Shown in pieces: positions 11,920 through 13,163 of a stretch of 64,000 nt of DNA. A program made the position numbers and the translations under genes. The stretch lies in NCBI GenBank assembly GCA_031292215.1, contig JARLHO010000125.1, positions 1-64,000 on the forward strand. Direction: 5' to 3'. The stretch is from Syntrophobacteraceae bacterium. Its GTDB lineage: Bacteria > Desulfobacterota > Syntrophobacteria > Syntrophobacterales > Syntrophobacteraceae. The notes under the pieces were generated by a model. It ran no database searches. It was not told the DNA's origin and worked only from the letters and a program-made list of their open reading frames with translations. Position 1 is the stretch's first letter; each line of letters begins with the position of its first letter.

Positions 11920-12164
11920 CTCTTGAATCTATCCCCATAAAATCCCGTCCGAGGACTTGGCCATTCAGTCCCCCAAGCAGCCACAGGTTCGATTGTAAAA
12001 GCCCATTTCCTGTAACACTGCCCGTACTCGTCTCCCCCGGCTTTTTCCTCCCCGCCCCTCCTGTTGAGTTTAGTTAGTTTCTCATTAATTCCAAGACGCA
12101 CGAAAAATCGTTTTATCCCCGCCAACTCCCAAGAACTAAGCAAGGTTCACCTATAAGATATTCA
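11920..12164. other. Non-coding gap between nifA and the MucR-type gene
   Basis: No gene, RNA or strong hairpin was recognised here. The minus-strand reading frame covering part of it overlaps nifA in antisense and has no family resemblance. Confidence 0.4.
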
Positions 12165-12195
12165 TTGCTTTACCCTACTTAATTGGTAGTATAAT
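12165..12195 (+). promoter_or_regulatory. Sigma-70-like promoter of the MucR-type regulator
   Basis: TATAAT at 12190-12195 is a perfect -10 element, with TTGCTT at 12165-12170 as a weak -35 at 19-base spacing. The surrounding 60 bases are AT-rich (ATTGGTAGTATAATATACTG), the kind of sequence MucR/Ros proteins bind, so autoregulation is plausible. GAGAGGATC before the ATG gives the ribosome site. Confidence 0.5.
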
Positions 12196-12243
12196 ATACT
12201 GTAACAAAGCAATTAATTTACGCTAAATCTGAGAGGATCTTTA

Positions 12244-12765
12244 ATGTCCAGAAAACTTATCGAACTCGCGTCGGAAATTGTGCAAACCCAGGTATCTCAA
12301 ACTCACATGACGGCTACCGAGATCACAGCATCTCTTCGGCAGGTCTTCGACACCCTCCACGAAATGCAGCGGGCGGAGTCGGAGGAAATCGAACTGTCTA
12401 AAATACAGGAACACGAACCTGAACCATCACTCAAACCTCAGGATTCCATTCAGAATGATAAAGTGATCTGCCTGGAATGCGGCGCCGAGATGAGGCAGCT
12501 TACCAAGTTGCATCTTGTCTCCCATGGCCTGACCGCCAAAGAGTATAAGAAAAAATATGGATTCACCATGGGGACGCCTCTTACGGCAAAGTCTTTGACT
12601 AAAGCCAGAAGCAAGGCGGCCAAGAAAAGAGGGATTCCGGAGAACCTGCAAAAGTACATGGAGGCACGAAGGCAAAGCAAGGCCGAAGCAGCCACACCGG
12701 CGGCAACAGAGGAAGCGGGCGTGGAAAAACCGAAACAGACACGGATAAGAAAGAAGACGGCCTAA
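12244..12765 (+). CDS. MucR/Ros family zinc-finger transcriptional regulator
   Basis: Protein of 173 residues with a prokaryotic C2H2 zinc finger: CLECGAEMRQLTKLHLVSHG, followed by the family hallmark GLTAKEYKKKYGF and a basic region KARSKAAKKRG. The finger has one more residue between the second Cys and first His than classical Ros. MucR proteins are DNA-binding silencers of AT-rich genes in alphaproteobacteria, and homologues occur in Desulfobacterota. The C-terminal tail is rich in Ala, Glu and Lys. The last codons abut a MITE insertion that duplicated the bases at the stop codon, so the downstream region has been displaced but the protein is intact. Confidence 0.88.
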   Translation: MSRKLIELASEIVQTQVSQTHMTATEITASLRQVFDTLHEMQRAESEEIELSKIQEHEPEPSLKPQDSIQNDKVICLECGAEMRQLTKLHLVSHGLTAKEYKKKYGFTMGTPLTAKSLTKARSKAAKKRGIPENLQKYMEARRQSKAEAATPAATEEAGVEKPKQTRIRKKTA

Positions 12766-12899
12766 ATTTTTGTAACCGTTCACCGCCGAGTTAAGCTTTG
12801 CCTCCGCTCTGGAAAAGAACCTGCCCCTGGAACATCTTTTCATTGCTTTGGGTGTTCCGAAGCAACATGAGAGACTGTGGTGAACGCTTACAAATTTTT
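12764..12899. mobile_element. IS66-type MITE with 8-bp target duplication
   Basis: A 120-bp element (12772-12891) has terminal inverted repeats GTAACCGTTCACC and GGTGAACGCTTAC, which pair with one mismatch. It is flanked by identical direct repeats AAATTTTT at 12764-12771 and 12892-12899. GTAA termini, a GTAAGCG-like repeat and 8-bp duplications are hallmarks of the IS66 family. The 94-bp interior has no coding capacity, so it is a non-autonomous miniature element. It contains an internal GGAACA/TGTTCC pair. It was inserted exactly at the stop codon of the MucR-type gene (TAA at 12763-12765). Confidence 0.85.
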
Positions 12900-13035
12900 G
12901 GCTAAAATCGGAACGGGTGACTACAAGGTGTGGCCGGCAAAGGCCTACCAGCTCCGCTTACTGGCGTCAGGGCTGCGTTCATAATTAATTTTCTCATAGG
13001 GGTTGTGCTTTGCATCACCCATCCTACAGTCTGCC

Positions 13036-13067
13036 CACCCATCCGCGGACTCGACGTGGGATGGGTG
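13036..13067. repeat. CACCCATCC hairpin downstream of tyrS
   Basis: CACCCATCC occurs at 13016-13024 and 13036-13044, and its reverse complement GGATGGGTG at 13059-13067. The second and third copies form a 9-bp stem about 100 bases past the tyrS stop, between convergent genes. It may act as a transcript end, but lacks a T-run on either side. Confidence 0.45.
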
Positions 13068-13163
13068 AAACACGGGCGGGCAACGGGCGAGAAGCCCATC
13101 GGCGCCGTCCGCAAGAGCGACTCTGCGATTATCTTTCCCAGCACACTCCCCGCCCCCCCGTAA

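Follow-up and report, generated by a model that had tools for sequence, protein, structure and literature searches.

The window analysed here, a stretch of 64,000 nucleotides from a Syntrophobacteraceae bacterium, carries a mucR/ros-type regulator gene on the plus strand (12244..12765; 173 aa) that ends in a TAA stop at 12763-12765 and whose product matches PF05443 (ROS/MUCR) with an E-value of 9.2e-36. Behind it lies a 120-bp unit (12772..12891, plus strand) flanked by two exact copies of the 8-bp sequence AAATTTTT, at 12764..12771 and 12892..12899. The terminal inverted repeats of the unit, GTAACCGTTCACC on the left (12772..12784, plus strand) and GTAAGCGTTCACC on the right (12879..12891, minus strand; GGTGAACGCTTAC when read on the plus strand), are 13 bp long and pair at 12 positions with a mismatch at position 5, and the order in the window is ...GCC TAA ATTTTT GTAACCGTTCACC ... 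GGTGAACGCTTAC AAATTTTT GGC.... According to the ORF list, the reading frames that overlap the unit, mucR aside, are incidental. Direct reading thus bears out an earlier note on this DNA, which had described a 120-bp non-coding unit with 13-bp inverted repeats containing one mismatch, as well as an exact 8-bp duplication holding two bases of the TAA. The same note placed the insertion exactly at the stop codon. This is correct for the staggered target, which begins at the second base of the stop so that the first two bases of the left duplication are the AA of TAA, but the left tip of the element lies 6 bp beyond it. Since the full target AAATTTTT and the T preceding it are old sequence, the TAA of mucR predates the insertion. 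The mucR product is 79% identical over its full length to the nearest congener homologue, which ends at about the same codon, and the element has not truncated the mucR frame.

The genes mucR and tyrS are convergent with the element between them, so that no polar effect on tyrS is expected and, with the mucR frame intact, the insertion is probably neutral. In the window, mucR and the element are situated between nifA and tyrS (11920-13163). In congener G001, the only one with recognisable nifA-tyrS synteny, these two genes almost adjoin (~100 bp apart) and mucR is missing, which means that the mucR segment was either gained in the window genome or lost in G001. An uninserted site would read TAAATTTTTGGCT uninterrupted behind mucR; the mucR homologues of the congeners are found in other neighbourhoods, and the element is absent behind them. 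None of these loci thus offers the orthologous empty site that the earlier note had proposed for comparison.

The genome (4.89 Mb in 177 contigs) was searched with a 136-bp query consisting of the unit and its duplications. In total, 32 matches were obtained, 31 of them besides the window unit, and nearly all were split into left arms (query ~1-64) or right arms (~47-136). Complete copies were identified as 303-314-bp units on contigs C8, C161, C36, C62, and C123. The pattern GTAASCGTTYACC matched the genome 49 times, against none for the reversed control. Family A, as we call it here, has ~15 left and ~13 right ends in the genome, corresponding to ~15-17 insertion sites when both paired and unpaired ends are included. 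The genome search for the 120-bp unit that the earlier note had suggested thus gave many other copies, mostly of the 303-314-bp form. Many copies end at contig ends, inside the repeat, and because many contigs stop in this way, the family explains a number of the contig breaks in the assembly.

For the analysis of target duplications, the 8 bases outside every end were collected and the right-end flanks compared with the left-end flanks. Ten exact 8-bp pairs were found in family A, two around single elements on C61 (AAATTTTT) and C123 (GAAAGCTT) and eight between contigs whose breaks lie within or beside the repeat, while one further pair (C36) agreed at seven of eight positions. By chance, random 8-mers from the window in a 16 x 13 design gave a mean of 0.011 pairs and a maximum of 2 in 3000 simulations. 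The targets are AT-rich (36% GC versus 54% for the window). Family A is thus multicopy with target duplications as well as short, non-coding, and bounded by terminal inverted repeats in both its 120-bp and its 303-314-bp form, as expected of a MITE. The flanks of two complete copies, C8:14381-14694 and C62:3421-3724, pair elsewhere or mismatch each other, suggesting recombination between copies or misassembly; for C8:14381-14694, whose left and right flanks have their partners on two different contigs, either two copies have recombined or the contig is chimeric.

Short length is unique to the window copy, which lacks the ~194 bp that lie between two 17-bp direct repeats in the long copies. Six copies were aligned, and the pattern GRAAAAGAACCTGCCCC was found twice in complete long copies, at a spacing of ~194 bp, but only once in the copy of the window, for which a deletion between direct repeats is therefore the best explanation. 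The single 17-bp copy in the window, GGAAAAGAACCTGCCCC (12811..12827, plus strand), is the probable deletion junction, and the 120-bp form would have arisen from the 303-314-bp family through loss between the two repeats, which may have preceded or followed insertion. Repeats that resemble the missing segment but lack MITE ends are present elsewhere in the same genome and in congener G007, and the long form is therefore a composite. This resemblance would also suit the opposite order of events, where the 120-bp unit is ancestral and the long copies captured a 194-bp repeat while duplicating the 17-bp sequence. We consider this order unlikely, as the window copy alone is short and every other testable copy long, and as its left arm agrees with the long form as far as the direct repeat. 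Moreover, the short copy is only a few bases off the long consensus and is therefore not visibly older. Shortening of a long copy is thus the preferred reading. In G007, the inner segment of long copies is part of a dispersed repeat, present in dozens of copies without MITE ends (L081, L084, and L087).

The predicted RNA fold of the unit is more stable than those of shuffled sequences (z -3.8) and AAATTTTT follows directly after the right end, as might be seen if the hairpin were kept as a functional 3' end of mucR, acting as terminator or RNA. Such a role is highly improbable, since a stable fold is expected of any inverted-repeat element, the terminator scan gave nothing at the element, and no Rfam family matched the unit at the gathering threshold; in addition, the unit is missing behind the mucR homologues of the congeners and is present at many unrelated sites. 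A structured RNA was rejected on the lack of an Rfam match and of a terminator call, the fold stability being that expected from inverted repeats. The earlier note had regarded a conserved structured RNA as the finding that would speak against a MITE; with no Rfam match and no complete copy in the congeners, the unit is not such an RNA. Complete copies of the MITE were found neither in ten congeners nor in 25 family members, and the exact 31-bp left end had no match in a scan of GTDB genomes, from which near records may be missing. The lack of complete copies in these relatives and the intact duplication fit a recent amplification at the species level, and are likewise in line with the fairly recent insertion first suggested for the window copy.

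IS66 ends start with GTAAGCG and are accompanied by 8-bp repeats (PMC11946415). The ends of the window MITE, GTAACCG and GTAAGCG, conform to GTAA(G/C)CG, and its target duplication is likewise 8 bp; in the ISPa75 group, too, the ends, GTAAGCGTCC and GTAACCGTCC, differ by G versus C at position 5 (PMC12888890). Transposases of the PF03050 family were detected in six of the 11 genomes of the genus. In G005 (MAG JAKAJS01, Deltaproteobacteria WY4.bin13), we identified a complete element of 1,437 bp (L098, GTAACCGTTCACC ... GGTGAACGGTTAC) that has the left terminal sequence of the window MITE, GTAACCGTTCACC, at both ends and encodes a transposase of at least 431 aa in one ORF (PF03050, E 5.5e-32); this element has no intact 8-bp duplication. 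Pieces of IS66 transposases in G001 and G009 are also accompanied by L098-type ends, one of which continues with GTAACCGTTCACCGttGAGTT like the MITE. The ends of the MITE are thus common with those of an autonomous IS of a congener. PF03050 is present in the end-matched L098 and absent from the unit itself, and the inverted repeats pair over 13 bp at the tips rather than over the 20-30 bp of IS66, for which reason the unit is filed as an IS66-type MITE and not as an IS66 member. Beyond 13-21 bp at the tips, we saw no homology of the MITE body to the IS66 elements.

Based on the GTAAGCG/GTAACCG ends, the 8-bp duplications, and the ends of L098, the window element is very probably a non-autonomous IS66-type MITE, as the earlier note had proposed. 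Descent from a non-IS66 transposase family with 8-bp duplications, which the lack of a matching IS66 transposase in the same genome might favour, is the least credible alternative in view of the IS66-type tips and the exact 13-bp match to either end of the IS66-family element L098 of congener G005. For the IS66-type MITE, a single-ORF (ISBst12-like) IS66 transposase would have recognised the 13-bp ends in trans and, after a staggered cut of 8 bp in AT-rich sequence at the 3' end of mucR, inserted a copy there; fill-in would then have produced the AAATTTTT duplication. A full IS66 element with matching ends, which the note had suggested looking for, is present in congeners but not in the window genome. 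When the latter was searched for a matching transposase, a single IS66 fragment from a different subgroup was all that was found, and the family therefore looks stranded or its helper unassembled. This fragment, at C125, was rejected as a helper, since it shares only 24% identity with the end-matched transposase and lacks ends of this kind.

A second MITE family (B), ~155-186 bp in length and sharing the 13-bp left end of family A (GTAAGCGTTCACCACGAAG...CTTCGTGGTGAACGATTAC), was observed at ~16 sites, with the 8-bp duplications CAATATTC, GCTCTGCG, and AATTTTTT. Among its members are L035:1501 (C1:2843-2997), L048 (C60:23011-23196), L148, and L153. The last two, C121:10574-10759 and C177:16839-17024, have the common 8-bp flank AATTTTTT on different contigs, reflecting either a preference for AT-rich targets or duplication of the region. 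Group II introns (RF02005, RF00029) are located at or inside copies of these inverted-repeat elements (L038:1-165, L040:36-191, and the tails of L041, L053, and L057), as if the inverted-repeat hairpins were a group II intron target. Two MITE families with IS66-type ends may have amplified in one species whose genome keeps no matching transposase, and we tentatively suggest, as a possibility short of an even chance, that they were mobilised in trans by a transient or foreign IS66 element of the ISBst12-like type.

Our results add a MITE family of the IS66 type that is well supported, shows target duplications, and has an autonomous counterpart with matching ends in a congener; it is a new family, and otherwise ordinary genome biology. 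In a limited literature search, we came across no clear account of a MITE derived from IS66. The ISBst12 group of IS66, which comprises single-ORF elements such as ISDge4 (PMC12898284), has the same GTAA tips, imperfect inverted repeats, and 8-bp target duplication, and is further resembled by the partner element L098 with its one PF03050 ORF. In contrast to this group, the MITE has no transposase, inverted repeats recognisable for 13 bp only, and an unrelated body. MITEPsy1 (100 bp, PMC3189936) and MITECca01 (~240 bp, PMC9769881) are, like the window MITE, short, non-coding, multicopy, restricted to close relatives, and equipped with ends matching an IS able to supply the transposase. However, their partners, ISPsy2 (IS5-like) for MITEPsy1 and ISCca4 (IS982) for MITECca01, reside in the same genome, whereas the window MITE is of the IS66 type, generates 8-bp duplications, and has no partner found in its own assembly.
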